Source: Candidatus Roseilinea mizusawaensis (GTDB lineage: Bacteria > Chloroflexota > Anaerolineae > J036 > Brachytrichaceae). Taken from it: DNA of 64,000 bases. The DNA is taken from assembly GCA_016841965.1 (NCBI GenBank), contig JAEANN010000022.1, positions 1 through 64,000 on the forward strand, given 5' to 3'. This document shows, piece by piece, positions 11,865 to 64,000 of the stretch. Position 1 is the first letter of the stretch. Every line of letters begins with the position of its first letter. The position numbers and the translations under genes were made by a program. The notes under the pieces are model-generated. The model saw nothing but the letters and a program-made list of their open reading frames with translations, ran no database searches and was not told the origin of the DNA.

Positions 11865-12514
11865 GTCTCACTTGGAATAGCGCCGATCACGGGCAAGCCC
11901 AGCCTGCGCTCGGCGTCGGATTGGGTGCGCAAGACCGTTGCCTGCGACCACTCCAGTGTAGCAACGATGAGCAGCCCAACCAGGCCACCGAGCAAAGCGC
12001 CGGCGATTACATTCACGCTGGTGCGCGGCGTGTCCTGGTGATATTCCGGGTCATCGCCCAGGATGGCATCGACGCGATCTTCGCGACGCAGCTTGGCATT
12101 CTCGCGGTTGCGCCAATCCACAAACAATTGCGCCCACGCCTTTGCAATGCGATTCGCAGTGTCACCGTCGTAGTCGCGCACCTCGATTGTCACAGCGTAG
12201 CGCGCGCCATCGCTGGCAACTCGCGTGCTGCCAAAGATACGCTCTGGCGGATAGTCCAGTTGGAGTTGCTCGCGCACGACGTCGGCGTAGCGCCGTGTAA
12301 AGATGATGCCGATGTACGAGTCGATCAACTGCTTGGCCGACTGGCTCAAGCCGAAATCGGGCCGCGCCGGCTGGATGATCAATTCCATCGTCGATTTGTA
12401 AATCGGCGCCTGCAACCGGCTGAATGTAAACGCACTCAATGCGGCAACGATTGCCACTAGCAGCACGATCCAACCGCGCCGGCGCGCAATGCGCAAATAG
12501 TCTTGCAAGTCCAT
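11861..12514 (-). CDS. Wzz/chain-length determinant-like membrane protein
   Basis: This 217-residue protein begins MDLQDYLRIARRRGW, followed by a membrane segment (IVLLVAIVAALSAFTF, about 16-31), an extracytoplasmic domain, and a second membrane segment near the C-terminus (VIAGALLGGLVGLLIVATL, about 168-186), ending in the LPVIGAIP stretch common to Wzz/CapA proteins. This topology matches polysaccharide co-polymerases that set chain length with a CpsD-type ATPase, which is encoded immediately downstream with a four-base overlap. Its proline motif before the second segment is weak. A heptamer repeat array separates it from a second Wzz-like gene. Confidence 0.82.
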   Translation of the reverse strand: MDLQDYLRIARRRGWIVLLVAIVAALSAFTFSRLQAPIYKSTMELIIQPARPDFGLSQSAKQLIDSYIGIIFTRRYADVVREQLQLDYPPERIFGSTRVASDGARYAVTIEVRDYDGDTANRIAKAWAQLFVDWRNRENAKLRREDRVDAILGDDPEYHQDTPRTSVNVIAGALLGGLVGLLIVATLEWSQATVLRTQSDAERRLGLPVIGAIPSET

Positions 12515-12520
12515 TGGAGT

Positions 12521-12651
12521 AGCCAGTAGTCAGTAGTCAGTAGTCAGAAGACATCGCACTGCGATCTGTTAACTGTGGTCTGTCATCTGTGATCTGTGAT
12601 CTGTGATCTGTCATCTGTCGTCTGTCACCTGTCGTCTGCGATCTGCGGTCG
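12521..12651. repeat. Degenerate 7-bp tandem array between two wzz-like genes
   Basis: Two heptamer families run together: AGTAGTC-type units (four, 12521-12547) and ATCTGTG/GTCTGTC-type units (about twelve, from 12572). The array occupies the whole intergenic space and continues through the stop codon of the upstream wzz-like gene, whose last residues (HRPQIADDR) are encoded by it. Similar period-7 arrays occur at 20174, 25735, 50135 and 63712. Confidence 0.85.
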
Positions 12652-13332
12652 GTGTGACGGGATCTGGCCAACCACCGTCAGGCCGGCCCGCTCCACATCG
12701 CGCCGATCGCGCAGCATCGGGTCGAGAAAATGAGCGGCAAAGGCCAGCCCCACGCCCACCGCCAGGGCGACGGCCATTCGTGCAACCAGATCGAGCCGGT
12801 CGCGCAACGGGGGTGCAAGCGGCATGGGCGTTGGCCGATCAAGCAGCCTGACCGGCGAGCCGGGCGTTTCAGCCAGTTGCGGCCAGTAGGCTGCGCTGTT
12901 CTCGCTCAACTCAGCGACAATTGCCCCGGCCAACTCAACTGCCTGGGCAGGGTCGGGCCAGCTCAGATACACCACAAAGATGCTCTGCGCGTGGTCGGAG
13001 GCAATCGCGCCCTGAATCTGGGCGGCGGGAATGCTCTGGCCGGCGGCGGCCATGCGCGCCGCAACTGCCTCGGCAAAGACGCCGGTGCGCACCACATCCT
13101 TTAAGCCGTTGGTCAGATATTCGGATGTCAACCATTCGTAGTAGCGGTCATACGTGTACACGCCGGGAGCGCGTTGGGGCAGCAGACCGGTCGAAAAGCG
13201 CATGACCACCTGATAGGAAACAGCCGGCGGGTGATAGGTGATAACGCTGAAGCCGGCCGCCACAACGACCGGCAGTAGCGCCAGCCACCACCACCTACGC
13301 AGCACGCGCGCGTAATCAATCAGCCGCATCAC
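12625..13332 (-). CDS. Wzz-like polysaccharide chain-length protein (second copy)
   Basis: This 235-residue protein has the same plan as the neighbour: an N-terminal LIDYARVLRRWWW, a membrane segment (LALLPVVVAAGFSVI, about 17-31), an external domain, a second membrane segment (VARMAVALAVGVGLAFAAHF, about 183-202), and a terminal LTVVGQIP. It is diverged from the first copy, so the two may form a hetero-complex or act on different polymers. Its ATG overlaps the guanylyltransferase stop upstream (ATGA). The last nine residues are encoded by the heptamer array at 12521-12651, suggesting the array replaced or extended the original 3' end. Confidence 0.8.
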   Translation of the reverse strand: MMRLIDYARVLRRWWWLALLPVVVAAGFSVITYHPPAVSYQVVMRFSTGLLPQRAPGVYTYDRYYEWLTSEYLTNGLKDVVRTGVFAEAVAARMAAAGQSIPAAQIQGAIASDHAQSIFVVYLSWPDPAQAVELAGAIVAELSENSAAYWPQLAETPGSPVRLLDRPTPMPLAPPLRDRLDLVARMAVALAVGVGLAFAAHFLDPMLRDRRDVERAGLTVVGQIPSHRPQIADDR

Positions 13333-20173: not shown

Positions 20174-20262
20174 GGGGATTTTGGATTGGAGATTTTGGAT
20201 TTCCGTGGTGCGTATTGCGTGTTCTAGATTCTGAGTTCTGACTTCTGTATTCTGTGCTCTCA
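20174..20262. repeat. Degenerate 7-bp-period repeat between ppk1 and the ROK-SIS gene
   Basis: Read on the minus strand, units such as AGAATAC, AGAAGTC, AGAACTC, AGAATCT, AGAACAC, GCAATAC and GCACCAC follow each other with a period of 7, then AATCCAAAATC-type words. The array fills the space between the two genes. The same heptamer family is seen in frame inside the FGGY gene at 63712-63790. Confidence 0.75.
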
Positions 20263-20269
20263 GGCGAGG

Positions 20270-47269: not shown

Positions 47270-50143
47270 ATGTCCATTGAAGTCCCGGTAATCATGATCA
47301 TCAGCCTGATTGGCCTGATGCTGGCTGCATTCCTGGCCTTGCTGGTCATCACCGGCTATGTCTACCGGCGTCGTCGCGCATCACGGCGCGCGCTCGAACA
47401 GCGCGTCGCAGAATTGCAGGTACTAAGCAATGCGGTCAATCGCATTGCGTCGGCGTCGCTGGATGAAGACGCGCTATGCCAGTTGGTGTACGACTGCGCT
47501 GCCGAGCTGGTCGACGTCAGCAGCTTCCAACTTGGCCTGTTTGAAGACGACGACTACGTCATCAAAGTGCGCTACGACCGAGGCATCCTGAGGGCGCCTG
47601 CGCGCTTTCACCTGGGTGAAGCCAAAGGCATCGTGGGGTGGATGCGCGACACCGGCCAGTCGCTGCTGGTGCGCGACTTTCAAACCGAGTTGCACACCCT
47701 GCCGGCCAGGCCGCGCTACATCAGCGAGCACCCGCCGCGCTCGGCAGTGTTTGTGCCGATGGTCACTTCGAAGGCTGTCATCGGGGCCATGTCGATTCAA
47801 TCGGACATACCGGGCGCTTACACCGAATCGCACTTGCGGATACTGAGCATTGTCGCCAACCAGGCCGCCTCGGCCATTCAAAATGCGCGCGCGCTGGCGC
47901 GGGAGAAAGCGCGCGCGCGGCAACTGGAACTGGTGGCCGAAGTGGCCCGCCAGACTGCCACCATCCTGGAGACCGAAGAGCTGCTGCCACGCTTGACCCA
48001 GACCATCCGTGACACGTTTGGCTACTACTTCGTCGGCCTGGCGCTTTTCGACGAAGAAAGCGGCGAGCTAGTCTTCCGCTCTGCCACACATCCAAACGTG
48101 GTCGGCAGCCGGCTGAAAATCGGCCAGGGGCTGGTAGGCGCCAGCGTCCAAGAGCGCCGCATGATCGCGGTGGCCGATGTGTTAACCGATCCACGCTACA
48201 TCTGGATGAATGCGCTGCCGGAAACCCGCAGCGAGATCGCTGCCCCATTGCTCATCGAGAATTGCGTGATCGGTGCGCTCGATCTGCAGTCGAATCGGCC
48301 GGCTGATTTCACTGAAGACGACCAGCGCTATATCGAGATTCTGGCTTCGCAGGTTGCCGTGGCCGTTGAAGACGCCCGGCTGTATGAAGCCGAACGCGAG
48401 CAAACCTGGATGTCGACAGCCTTGCTGCAAGTGGCCGAAGTAGCGCGCAGCGCCGAATCTCTCGAAGACGCGCTGACCGCTGTGGCGCGGCTGGCGCCCA
48501 TGCTGACCGGCGTAGACTGCTGCGCGCTGCTGACTTACGAGCTGGCAACCGATTCATTTCAGATCTCGGCACTATATGGCACACTGTCACACAACGAGGA
48601 CTTTGTGATTGGCGACGTGTTGCTACCGGGCGACGTTCCCGCGCTTGAAGAGATGCTCACCTCGCGCCAACCAGTCATGGGCACCCAGCGCGGCCGGCTG
48701 GCTGTGCCTGTGCTGGCGCTGCCGCTGATCGCGCAGGATCAACTGCTCGGCGCAATGCTGGTTGGGCAAAGGGATGGCGGCGCAATTCCCCGGCAGCGGC
48801 GCGAGTTGCTGGCCGGCCTGGCCAACCAGGCCGCGCTGGTTATCGACGCGGTATGGGCCAACATCGCGCAACAGGAAGAGTCGTGGGTGACGGCAGCGCT
48901 GCTCCAGGTGGCCCAGACGGTGAGCGAACAAGCCGACCTGAACGACATCGCGGCCTCGGTTGTCCGACTGACACCGCTGCTGGTCAGCGTCGATGCGTGC
49001 GCTATCTTTGTGCGTGAGGGCAATGACATCAACCTGCGTGCTGCCCAGGCCTATGGCCTGTCGCCCGAAGCCCAGCAGCAATTCAATCGGGATGCGTTTC
49101 CGATGGCTGCCTGGCGCGAGTGGTTCCAGCACATTGGCGCCCAGTTGGACAAACAGGCCAACGGCGCAGCAAGCCAGGTGCTGTACCCGGCGCCAGAGAT
49201 CATCGCCGAGCGCATGGGCCTGAAAACCTGCGCTGCGCTGCCGTTAATTGCCAAAGGGGATCCTGTCGGCACAATGGTCATCGGCGTTAACACCCCTGAA
49301 CGGCTTCCGGTCGGGCGTGCCTTGAATATTCTGACCGGTATTGCGCAACAAACCGCGTTGGCAATCGACAACGCCAGGCTGTACCGCGAGTCGCTGGAAC
49401 GCCAACGGCTGGAGCAGGAACTGTCTCTGGCACGCGAAATCCAGACTAGCTTTCTGCCCAGAGAAGCGCCAGACGTTCCCGGATGGGGACTGGCTGCAGA
49501 CTGGCAGGCCGCCCGCCAGGTTGGCGGTGATTTTTACGACTTCGTGCCGTTGCCAGATGGCCGCTATGGCCTGGTAATTGCCGATGTGGCCGACAAGGGT
49601 GTGCCGGCAGCCTTGTTCATGGCCTTGTCGCGCACGCTCATGCGGGCTGTGGCGTTCACCGGCCGAACGCCCTCCGAAGCGCTCAGGCGCGTCAATCAGC
49701 TCATTTTGTCCGACGCGCGCTCCGATCTGTTCGTCACGGTGTTCTATGCCATCTGGAATCCGGTCACAGGCGAGGTGGCGTATTCCAACGCCGGCCACAA
49801 TCCCCCCATACTGATCCGCGCGGGTGGCGCGCTGGAGTTGCTCTCCGGGCGGGGCATGGCCCTGGGCGTCGTCGAACCCATCCATCTCGAAGCGCGCTCG
49901 ATTATCATGGCGCCGGGCGATACGCTGCTGCTGTACACCGATGGTGTGATCGATGCCCTGAACGACCAGGACGAAGCGTTCGGCATGGAACGCCTGAGCC
50001 ACACCCTGAACGCGGCGCGTCATCTTCCTGCGCGCGACATCGTCAAGGCCATCATGCGCGCTGTCGAACAGTTTGCTTGCTGCGAAGGCGCGTTTGACGA
50101 CGAAACAATCATAGTGCTCAAGCGCGAGAGTCATGGTGAGTGA
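47270..50143 (+). CDS. Membrane-anchored GAF-domain SpoIIE-type protein phosphatase
   Basis: This 957-residue protein has one N-terminal membrane segment (IMIISLIGLMLAAFLALLVI, about 8-27), a short coiled coil, four GAF sensor domains (about 50-205, 215-375, 390-530 and 550-700), a helical linker LEQELSLAREIQTSFLPRE, and a C-terminal PP2C/SpoIIE phosphatase with VGGDFYDF, VIADVADKGVPAALFMAL, YSNAGHNPPI and LLLYTDGVIDALNDQD. Such RsbU-type enzymes dephosphorylate an anti-sigma-factor antagonist in response to signals. No partner is encoded nearby. Its stop codon lies inside a GTGAGTG repeat array. Confidence 0.92.
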   Translation: MSIEVPVIMIISLIGLMLAAFLALLVITGYVYRRRRASRRALEQRVAELQVLSNAVNRIASASLDEDALCQLVYDCAAELVDVSSFQLGLFEDDDYVIKVRYDRGILRAPARFHLGEAKGIVGWMRDTGQSLLVRDFQTELHTLPARPRYISEHPPRSAVFVPMVTSKAVIGAMSIQSDIPGAYTESHLRILSIVANQAASAIQNARALAREKARARQLELVAEVARQTATILETEELLPRLTQTIRDTFGYYFVGLALFDEESGELVFRSATHPNVVGSRLKIGQGLVGASVQERRMIAVADVLTDPRYIWMNALPETRSEIAAPLLIENCVIGALDLQSNRPADFTEDDQRYIEILASQVAVAVEDARLYEAEREQTWMSTALLQVAEVARSAESLEDALTAVARLAPMLTGVDCCALLTYELATDSFQISALYGTLSHNEDFVIGDVLLPGDVPALEEMLTSRQPVMGTQRGRLAVPVLALPLIAQDQLLGAMLVGQRDGGAIPRQRRELLAGLANQAALVIDAVWANIAQQEESWVTAALLQVAQTVSEQADLNDIAASVVRLTPLLVSVDACAIFVREGNDINLRAAQAYGLSPEAQQQFNRDAFPMAAWREWFQHIGAQLDKQANGAASQVLYPAPEIIAERMGLKTCAALPLIAKGDPVGTMVIGVNTPERLPVGRALNILTGIAQQTALAIDNARLYRESLERQRLEQELSLAREIQTSFLPREAPDVPGWGLAADWQAARQVGGDFYDFVPLPDGRYGLVIADVADKGVPAALFMALSRTLMRAVAFTGRTPSEALRRVNQLILSDARSDLFVTVFYAIWNPVTGEVAYSNAGHNPPILIRAGGALELLSGRGMALGVVEPIHLEARSIIMAPGDTLLLYTDGVIDALNDQDEAFGMERLSHTLNAARHLPARDIVKAIMRAVEQFACCEGAFDDETIIVLKRESHGE

Positions 50144-50212
50144 GTGGTGAGTGGTGAGTGGTGAGTGCTGAGTGCTGAGTGCTGAGTGCTGAGTGGTGAG
50201 TGGTGAGTGACA
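50135..50212. repeat. Tandem heptamer array (GTGAGTG/CTGAGTG) after the GAF-PP2C gene
   Basis: About ten near-perfect 7-bp units run from the last codons of the phosphatase gene; the gene's TGA is part of one unit. The spacer then continues to 50308 with GCACGCGGC- and CAATCC-type words resembling those in the array at 20174. Confidence 0.85.
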
Positions 50213-50308
50213 AGTGCGGGCGCGGCACGCGGCGCGCAACACGCAAGGGATCACGGACGAGAAGCTTTGTCGCTCAATGGTCAATCCCCAATCCAAGATT
50301 CAAAATCG

Positions 50309-60727: not shown

Positions 60728-61138
60728 TCAGCCGGCCAGAGGCCAATCCACCACAGCATGCCGTTGCACAACGATCAAGGGATGACCATCGGCGGGCTGC
60801 AGCCCAATTGCAGCCAGATCCCACCACACCACATTGCCCACCAGCACTTCGCCAGAGCGCAGTCTCAGCTCTGCCGGGCGGCTTTCACTGCTGACAGCCA
60901 ACAAATAATCGGACAGACTACGGCGCGATCGGGCGCGATGCCACATCAGTTCCTCGACCGGCACACCGTAGCAGCCGGCCAGACTACGCACTATATCTTC
61001 ATCGCTGGTGTCGCGGTAGCGCAGCTCGATGTGACGCACCTTGCGCCGATCGGCCTCATCTAGCTGCGCGGTGATCACGCTAATCGGCGGTCCGCCGCGC
61101 ATCGCGCGCAAAAAGCGCAGGTGATCGCCCAGGCTCAT
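60728..61138 (-). CDS. Small XRE-like HTH protein with a C-terminal Sm-like segment
   Basis: This 136-residue protein is unrecognised by name. Residues 4-66 align with an XRE helix-turn-helix pattern (LRFLRAMRGG at the start and IVRSLAGCYGVPVEELM at the end). Residues about 88-133 (AELRLRSGEVLVGNVVWWDL and LIVVQRHAVV) give the strand-turn order of an Hfq/LSm fold: a short strand pair with a conserved glycine, then a last strand with HAV-like residues as in Hfq's YKHAI. Its ATG overlaps the stop of the larger upstream gene (ATGA), so both are made together. The Sm assignment is by pattern only. Confidence 0.65.
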   Translation of the reverse strand: MSLGDHLRFLRAMRGGPPISVITAQLDEADRRKVRHIELRYRDTSDEDIVRSLAGCYGVPVEELMWHRARSRRSLSDYLLAVSSESRPAELRLRSGEVLVGNVVWWDLAAIGLQPADGHPLIVVQRHAVVDWPLAG

Positions 61139-61989
61139 GCTGTCACCTCTGCTTCGCGCGTGTAATAGGCAATGGCCAGCTTTTGCAGGGTGGTCTCGCG
61201 CCCATCTTCCAGGCGCAACGTCAAAGCATACGGACTGAACCCAATCAGATGGCCGCTGAATGTCTCTTTATTGAACAGTTTCACGCTCAGACGCGCGCCG
61301 GCGTGTTGGGCGTTGGTGAGATATTTCATCTCAAAGGCATCCACCGCCTCGGGCAATATCGCCCGTTTGGATTGGCCTGGCATCTTGTTGCCAAACGACT
61401 GACTGCTCAGGCGCTCGTATTGCTCACGCAGCCAGGCGCGCGCCTCACGCGCAGTAAGCTGCTGCACCGGCTTGCCCAAATCTGCCACCAGCTCCTCGGG
61501 CAACAAGCCCAGGCGTTTGGCTAGCGCGTCAATGGCTTTGAGTTGAGCCTGGCTGACCGGCGCAGGTTCTTTTGGCGCAGGCGCAGCAGAAGCGAGCGCA
61601 GCAGAAGCGAGCGTAGCAGAAGCGAGCGCAGCAGAAGCAGGCGCTGCAGAAGCGGGCGCAGCAGAAGCGGGCGCTGAGGCTGGTTTGGGCTGCGCCGGCG
61701 GGCGCGCAGCCGGGCGAGACGCAGGACGATTTGCCGGGCGTCCCCGCGCAGGGGGATTTCCCCTGCCCCGCTCTGGTGATCGCGGTAACACCGGCGGCGG
61801 ATCCGATCGCACTTTTAGAACATCCACCCCGACATATAACGCGCGCGCCAGTTTCACATGATCCTGAGGGCGCAATGCCCGCCCTCCTTCGTATTGCCGC
61901 AGCACGGGAACAGGAATACCGGTTCGCACGCCTAGCTGCTCAAGCGTCAAACCTTTCATCTTGCGCAATTTCCACAGATTTTCAGGCAT
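61135..61989 (-). CDS. XRE-HTH protein with Ala-rich linker and C-terminal Hfq/Sm-like domain
   Basis: This 284-residue protein has four parts. Residues 3-58 form a classic XRE HTH (WKLRKMKGLTLEQLGVRTGI and VLRQYEGGRAL). Residues 62-145 form a Pro/Arg-rich then Ala-rich linker encoded by six 15-bp repeats. Residues 148-185 (KAIDALAKRLGLLPEELV and LTAREARAWL) match a helical motif found in many phage and recombination proteins. Residues 218-280 read as an Sm fold: RLSVKLFNKETFSGHLIGFS, YALTLRL, then LQKLAIAYYTRE as in Hfq. The ATG at 61989 is the first that preserves the HTH start. It may bind DNA or RNA, or both. Confidence 0.72.
   Translation of the reverse strand: MPENLWKLRKMKGLTLEQLGVRTGIPVPVLRQYEGGRALRPQDHVKLARALYVGVDVLKVRSDPPPVLPRSPERGRGNPPARGRPANRPASRPAARPPAQPKPASAPASAAPASAAPASAALASATLASAALASAAPAPKEPAPVSQAQLKAIDALAKRLGLLPEELVADLGKPVQQLTAREARAWLREQYERLSSQSFGNKMPGQSKRAILPEAVDAFEMKYLTNAQHAGARLSVKLFNKETFSGHLIGFSPYALTLRLEDGRETTLQKLAIAYYTREAEVTA
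61583..61672 (-). repeat. 15-bp minisatellite (6 copies) inside the XRE-Sm gene
   Basis: GCAGCAGAAGCGAGC and five close variants are repeated in frame, encoding the five-residue unit ASAAP/ASAAL of the linker. Frame is kept by the multiple-of-three unit, so length could vary without disrupting the domains. Confidence 0.9.
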
Positions 61990-62088
61990 GGCAACAGTAT
62001 GCCACAACCAGCATCCCTTCCACAGTCAATCCAGTTATAGTTGATAGACCAGTGGCGTGAGCCAACAAAAATTGGAGAACAGAGCACC

Positions 62089-62903: not shown

Positions 62904-64000
62904 ATGGTTCTGGTGCTCGACCTGGGCAGTTCGGCGACCCGCGCCCTGCTCTACGATGAACAGGCGCAATTGCAAAGCAACACGATTGCTCGCCAACCCT
63001 TCGAGTTTCGCGCCGGGGCAGATGGCCGCAGCGAAGACGATCCAGATGCCGCCCTGACGCGCGTCGAAGCCGTCATCGACGGGGCGCTCTCCGGCGCACA
63101 GATTGGACAGTCACCCATCAGGGCGATCGGCATCTCGGCGTACGCATGCAGCTTGCTATGCCTGGATGAGCGCGGCAATCCACTCACCCCTGTGTTCACC
63201 TACGCAGACACGCGCGCCGCAGAGGATGCGCGGGCGCTGCGGCATGAGCTGGATGAGATCGCGGCGCTTCAACGCACCGGCTGCAGGATTCGCGCCAATT
63301 ACTGGCCGGCGCGCCTGGCCTGGCTCAAACGCACGCAGCCGGCTGTGTTCAGCCGGACGCGCTGGTTCGTCTCGCTAGCCGACTACCTTGGTCTGAAACT
63401 GTTCGGCCGATTGCGCGCCGGCATTTCAACCTCCTCGTGGAGCGGGATGCTCGACCGGCAGACCGGCGATTGGGACGAGACATGGCTCACGCACCTGGGC
63501 ATCGCGCGCGATCAATTGCCGCCTGTTGCGCAAGATGGCGAGACGTTGCGCGGGTTGGCCGGCCGGTATGCCAGGCGCTGGCCGGCCCTGCGCGAGGCAG
63601 CGTATTACCCGCCGTTGGGCGACGGCGCTGCAGCCAATCTCGGCAGCGGCTGCGTGGACGACTCGCGCATTGCGATCACCATTGGCAGCACCGCTGCGAT
63701 TCGCGTCGTTATCGGTCGTCGGTCGTCGGTTGCCAGTAGTCAGAACACAGAAGACAGAGCACAGAATACACAATACGCGACACGCAATCCAGCGCATGAG
63801 ATGCGGGGGGTGGAAATCCCCCCGGCGCTGTGGTTGTACCGCGTCGACCATACGCGCGACCTGATCGGCGGAGCGACCACCGAAGGCGGCAATGTGTTTG
63901 CCTGGCTGCACGCCACACTGAAGCTGCCGGATAGCAACGCGCTGGAAGCTGAGTTGAGCGCCATGCGCCCGGATGGTCATGGGCTGACGGTGTTGCCCAT
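62904..64000 (+). CDS. FGGY-family carbohydrate kinase (gluconokinase-like), partial, with an in-frame repeat insertion
   Basis: The gene starts at ATG 62904 and runs off the window; 365 codons are seen. The N-terminal part has LVLDLGSSATRALLYD, YADTRAAEDARAL, GDGAAANLGSGCV and ITIGSTAAIRVVI, and resumes at PPALWLYRVDHTRDLIGGATTEGGN. Between these two blocks, where relatives have a few residues, there are about 28 (residues 271-298: RRSSVASSQNTEDRAQ onward) encoded by a 7-bp-period repeat. The frame is kept. It would phosphorylate a sugar such as gluconate. The insertion lies near the ATPase core and may reduce activity. It is probably co-transcribed with the SDR. Confidence 0.85.
   Translation, partial: MVLVLDLGSSATRALLYDEQAQLQSNTIARQPFEFRAGADGRSEDDPDAALTRVEAVIDGALSGAQIGQSPIRAIGISAYACSLLCLDERGNPLTPVFTYADTRAAEDARALRHELDEIAALQRTGCRIRANYWPARLAWLKRTQPAVFSRTRWFVSLADYLGLKLFGRLRAGISTSSWSGMLDRQTGDWDETWLTHLGIARDQLPPVAQDGETLRGLAGRYARRWPALREAAYYPPLGDGAAANLGSGCVDDSRIAITIGSTAAIRVVIGRRSSVASSQNTEDRAQNTQYATRNPAHEMRGVEIPPALWLYRVDHTRDLIGGATTEGGNVFAWLHATLKLPDSNALEAELSAMRPDGHGLTVLP
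63712..63790 (+). repeat. Heptamer repeat inserted in frame inside the FGGY kinase gene
   Basis: Units AGAACAC, AGAAGAC, AGAGCAC, AGAATAC, ACAATAC and GCGACAC follow GTCGGTC-type units, in 7-base phase. The same words occur in the intergenic array at 20174-20262. The insert adds about 28 codons without a stop. Confidence 0.85.

Follow-up and report, generated by a model that had tools for sequence, protein, structure and literature searches.

A kinase gene with an in-frame heptamer array

The window, by which we mean the whole 64,000-nucleotide stretch that was analysed, is part of contig C30 of a 3.86 Mb genome in 59 contigs (G000). Its forward strand codes at 62904..64000 for an FGGY carbohydrate kinase whose gene extends past the window. 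The 3' part of this gene, which the original prediction had left in doubt, proves to be intact: the open reading frame continues to 526 aa in all and includes the C-terminal domain. Both domains are recognized by their Pfam models (FGGY_N, 2.7e-38; FGGY_C, 8.2e-30), and the top Foldseek match of the fold is 3gbt (E 1.5e-41), the closest folds being those of gluconate and xylulose kinases.

Between the strand ending in RVV and the motif PPALW, the gene contains an array of 12 heptamers in register on the forward strand (63713..63796), which keeps the frame and is free of stops. This bears out the stop-free, in-frame repeat of about 79 bases that had been predicted here. The words are not the single AGAAnAC-type unit of that prediction; they form a graded series running through CGGTCGT, CAGTAGT, CAGANNA and CGCAATC. 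Read in the sense of the gene, block A (63713..63740, +) consists of CGGTCGT CGGTCGT CGGTTGC CAGTAGT, block B (63741..63768, +) of CAGAACA CAGAAGA CAGAGCA CAGAATA, and block C (63769..63789, +) of CACAATA CGCGACA CGCAATC, and a twelfth word, CAGCGCA, closes the array. Nor does kinase sequence resume exactly after the repeat, as had been supposed, PPALW lying about 24 bases past the last clear heptamer. The period-7 identity of the array is 31/42, whereas dinucleotide shuffling of the whole window, repeated 40 times, gave at most 28. The two sense frames that the gene does not use differ, one having stops and the other being open. The kinase copy has no palindrome or hairpin: its RNA fold has a z of +1.24, and the sole inverted pair is 12 nt long at 83%.

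An example of the peptide specified by the insert is SSVASSQNTEDR. In an AlphaFold2 model of the kinase (pTM 0.88), insert residues 274-300 have a pLDDT <50 and are flanked by two strands, so that the insert models as a disordered, extended turn of a β-hairpin.

Gain of the array in the kinase loop

The nearest relative is an Anaerolineae MAG (CALBEF01; G001), whose kinase shares 83% aa identity with that of G000, and the next species in the genus is Thermoflexales SKYG113 (G002). Measured between the same anchors, the loop spans 78 bp in G002, 162 in G000 and 183 in G001. The 84 bp excess of G000 over G002 agrees with the roughly 28 additional residues of the original prediction, and the differences of 84, 105 and 21 bp are all multiples of 21, as they must be if a heptamer array is to change in length without loss of the frame. 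The short loop of G002 provides the empty site expected from an insertion, and more than 20 further homologues from members of the family and class are likewise short. A relative with a loop equally long and conserved had been named as the observation that would speak against insertion. G001 does have the length, in fact a longer heptamer array than G000, but it is written in different words, and G002 and the rest are short. Since the array is present in G000 and G001, and G002 and the >20 other homologues have short loops, there is good support for a gain of repeat DNA in coding sequence, which, going by the loops compared, parsimony places in the common ancestor of G000 and G001 after its split from G002. 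It counts against the explanation that we favor that the length of this loop varies across the family in any case. As for the short element that the original prediction had envisaged entering coding DNA, the gain itself stands, and a satellite array that resides in the genome and evolves there describes the inserted DNA better than a single insertion of such an element.

G000 and G001 are both assemblies of metagenome type in many contigs, which would speak for an assembly join or a contaminant. This is extremely improbable, as two separate, independent assemblies each have an array at the equivalent codon, flanked by syntenic DNA, and similar in-frame arrays occur in a single-contig relative (G021, see below).

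The dN/dS of the kinase is 0.152 before the insert and 0.188 after it; hence, both halves of the protein are under purifying selection. The insert itself evolves faster than its flanks, with a dN/dS of 0.37 over few codons whose alignment is uncertain. One might suppose that the inserted peptide is adaptive and that arrays are a source of useful loops under positive selection, given that it has been kept in two species and that the same loops have been used again in several lineages. We consider this very unlikely in view of this value for the insert, together with its predicted disorder and unconserved sequence.

Arrays across the window, the genome and the class

Elsewhere in this genome, words related to those of the kinase array are found at 18 places, as the original prediction had anticipated. 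A CAG-spaced pattern gave 179 matches versus 7 for its reversed control. Within the window, an intergenic composite array at 12509..12652, with A followed by B words, faces a reversed B-word array, and the orthologous site in G001 has other words. At 20219..20265 on the reverse strand, B-type words adjoin words of classes C and D, the polar order being the same, and the G001 version is 28 bp longer. A further composite array (50128..50306) starts with GTGAGTG.. and continues with CGCAA.. and CAATC/CAAAATC words. In the aligned DNA, it apparently provides the last residues and the stop codon of the upstream gene, which ends in ..KRESHGE before the stop in G000 and in ..KRESSGE before the stop in G001. 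Separately, a 15-bp tandem repeat at 61581-61674 encodes an Ala/Ser-rich linker (ALASA) in the open reading frame 61135-62007.

Array statistics refer to a sample of about 0.48 Mb per genome (480 kb of G000 and 489 kb of G001). The sample holds 42 period-7 arrays in G000 and 87 in G001, against only 1-22 for periods 5, 8, 10, 11 and 13. Inverted partners of arrays show a weak excess only (6/42 versus 1.6 and 13/86 versus 6.3). In the class as a whole, the CAG-spaced pattern has a patchy distribution, occurring with local words in 82 of 150 genomes. In this class-wide search, the reversed control pattern was itself enriched in G030, G035, G105 and G128, which suggests GAC-spaced heptamer arrays in those genomes.

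Fixed word order and lineage-specific words

The words fall into four classes: A (CAGTMGT), B (CAGANNA), C (CGCAAYA) and D (CAAAATC). Among 20 multi-class arrays found by periodicity alone, all 24 class changes run forward (A to B, 14; B to C, 8; B to D, 2) and none backward. The classes were named after inspection, and 11 of the 20 arrays had been inspected during naming; the nine others are all forward, with a one-sided sign probability of 1 in 512. This test, restricted to periodic arrays, replaced a looser and noisy chain test, in which a few reverse changes appeared in G000 with counts near its own noise. The kinase insert obeys the same order, with A words followed by B and then C words.

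The words are also specific to lineages. CAATCGT in three tandem copies gives 96 matches in G001, 6 in G000 and 0 in 13 other genomes of the family. Three tandem copies of AATCTCN occur 422 times in G022, 134 in G009, 100 in G023, 71 in G021 and 43 in G017 (the g7/g8 genomes), with 0 matches in G000-G003. The same holds within proteins: loops of the leucyl-tRNA synthetase (LeuRS) and of a helicase are built from AATCTC words in G009 and from CAAAATC or CAATCGT words in G000/G001. Where intergenic arrays are orthologous between G000 and G001, they have kept their position and changed in words and length, and outside genes the length differences are not always multiples of 7. Most array sites are common to these two genomes with altered content, and clean new insertions are few (about one, at C44:7273 of G001); their scarcity could reflect local turnover rather than mobility.

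These patterns bear on the simplest account of such DNA, local microsatellite expansion, in which a heptamer-like seed in the loop grew by polymerase slippage with no copying from other loci. It draws on two reports, which describe heptamers as the most frequent class of long simple repeats in numerous bacteria, customarily explained by slippage (PMC4679880; PMC4692102), and on the 21-bp difference in loop length between the sister species. However, independent growth would yield neither the same graded, ordered series at unlinked loci nor genome-wide words specific to a lineage, and we regard local expansion as unlikely.

Arrays in other genes

The original prediction held that the heptamers occur elsewhere only between genes, which does not hold: in-frame arrays are also present in LeuRS, the valyl-tRNA synthetase (ValRS), RecN, MazG, PEPC, BchH, ThrB and PyrK, and in three loops of an MrfA-like helicase. 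Family models confirm as hosts LeuS, RecN, MazG, the MrfA-like helicase and a PTPS-related membrane protein in G000, and ValS, PEPC, BchH, ThrB, PyrK and a xanthine-dehydrogenase-like protein in G001. By a simple ORF caller, some of whose ORFs are spurious, 13 of 37 merged arrays in G000 and 28 of 81 in G001 lie inside ORFs. The history of ValS is that of the kinase, with an array in G000, a larger one in G001 and none in G002. The LeuS and helicase loops are variable throughout the family and hold arrays in several genera. In this hot-spring lineage of Chloroflexota, heptamer repeats have repeatedly become part of apparently working enzymes, in flexible loops.

The LeuRS array of G000 has a strong hairpin fold (z -4.41). 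At L158:10910-10996, this in-frame array consists of two facing heptamer arms, and both arms have different words in G001, as if they had been altered together. The single-contig relative G021 also has similar in-frame arrays; its kinase homologue (L023) carries a hairpin-like heptamer array in a different, C-terminal loop (..HPIPNPQSLIPKPQSP..).

Proposed origin and spread of the arrays

We think it probable that the kinase insert belongs to a composite heptamer satellite dispersed in the genome, one copy of which lodged in a hairpin loop of the kinase, and that this satellite is copied between loci, resized by slippage and filtered by selection, a conclusion based on draft and metagenome assemblies. 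A satellite copy would have entered the β-hairpin loop in the ancestor of G000 and G001. Copying of array DNA from one locus to another would maintain the word families as lineage-specific and in fixed order, and arrays would lengthen and shorten by 7-nt slippage. In coding DNA, selection would retain only those length changes that are divisible by three, which in the kinase means 21-bp steps of three heptamers, and only those words that give no in-frame stop, so that arrays would be tolerated in genes only where loop length is free. As the 28-35 residues added by the array make a disordered turn, the kinase is proposed to remain functional, and we infer that its catalytic activity is retained.

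Copying between loci is needed in this scheme because slippage accounts for the unit and for the changes in length, and leaves the shared order and the lineage-specific words at unlinked loci unexplained. Candidate routes would be gene conversion, the use of array fragments in repair, or some enzyme. It is plausible, if somewhat short of probable, that a single copying process spreads order-specific arrays, rewrites old ones with current words and lengthens the loops of essential proteins, acting on coding and non-coding copies in concert. A Y1 (REP/IS200-type) transposase was considered as the mover and rejected: it is absent from G001 (93% complete), the array-richest genome of the genus, the matches in G000 are weak and partial, and no enzyme for the copying was found.

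The short loops of the relatives and the composite order that the kinase copy has in common with other copies would also be expected of a fixed mobile element, similar to a MITE or a Rickettsia element, that entered the kinase in a single in-frame insertion. Nevertheless, the kinase copy has neither terminal inverted repeats nor a palindrome, neither the length nor the ends of the arrays are fixed, duplication of a target site was not seen, and a Y1 transposase is not required, making such an element highly improbable.

Relationship to known repeats

The palindromic elements of Rickettsia are longer palindromes of defined families. The original prediction had likened the kinase insert to them, and the likeness holds in so far as repeat DNA lies in frame in tolerated loops of many conserved proteins; it fails in that the kinase copy has no palindrome or fixed ends and consists of tandem heptamers of variable length and words, even though a hairpin fold is seen for the LeuRS array. 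By analogy, the Rickettsia elements are the nearest functional parallel, yet the array, which differs from them in composition and unit, does not appear to be one of them. As the kinase copy fails the palindrome test, it is classed with the dispersed heptamer satellites, whose features it shares: a 7-nt tandem unit above chance, presence at unlinked loci, and a copy number that differs between relatives at the same site. The usual but inessential single consensus word per family is replaced here by graded words within one array.

Among these satellites, the TAACTGA direct repeats of Beggiatoaceae and cyanobacteria resemble the present arrays in their 7-nt tandem unit, in being dispersed and mostly intergenic, and in occurring in some ORFs in a stop-free orientation (PMC4679880). 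In them, however, one word dominates and the coding cases are mainly protein ends or hypothetical proteins (PMC4679880), whereas the present arrays comprise several word families in polar order and interrupt conserved enzymes internally. The heptamers of Xanthomonas and Nostoc are likewise dispersed 7-nt units whose length differs between close species; they have a G-rich single consensus, are intergenic in 89-93% (Xanthomonas) and 68% (Nostoc) of cases, and, in the portions of that report consulted, are not described as having ordered words (PMC4692102). Chloroflexus aurantiacus (GATAGRA)n satellites are also scattered heptamers in a Chloroflexota genome; their word is another one, and the sections consulted of the account describe neither in-frame use in enzymes nor word order (PMC6749651). 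Literature searches for heptamers in Roseilinea or Roseiflexus returned nothing relevant.

Bacterial heptamer repeats are usually regarded as intergenic slippage products. The present family, with its ordered and lineage-specific words, lies inside tRNA synthetases, a DNA-repair ATPase, PEP carboxylase and a chlorophyll-synthesis enzyme. It makes testable by what means short bacterial satellites spread when no transposase is evident, and how frequently new protein loops derive from repeat DNA that is selfish or neutral.

As an uncontrolled observation, many A-block arrays (L118, L119, L137, L142, L145 and L149) start a few bases after CATGG, which might be the start codon of an oppositely oriented gene, as described for the TAACTGA repeats.
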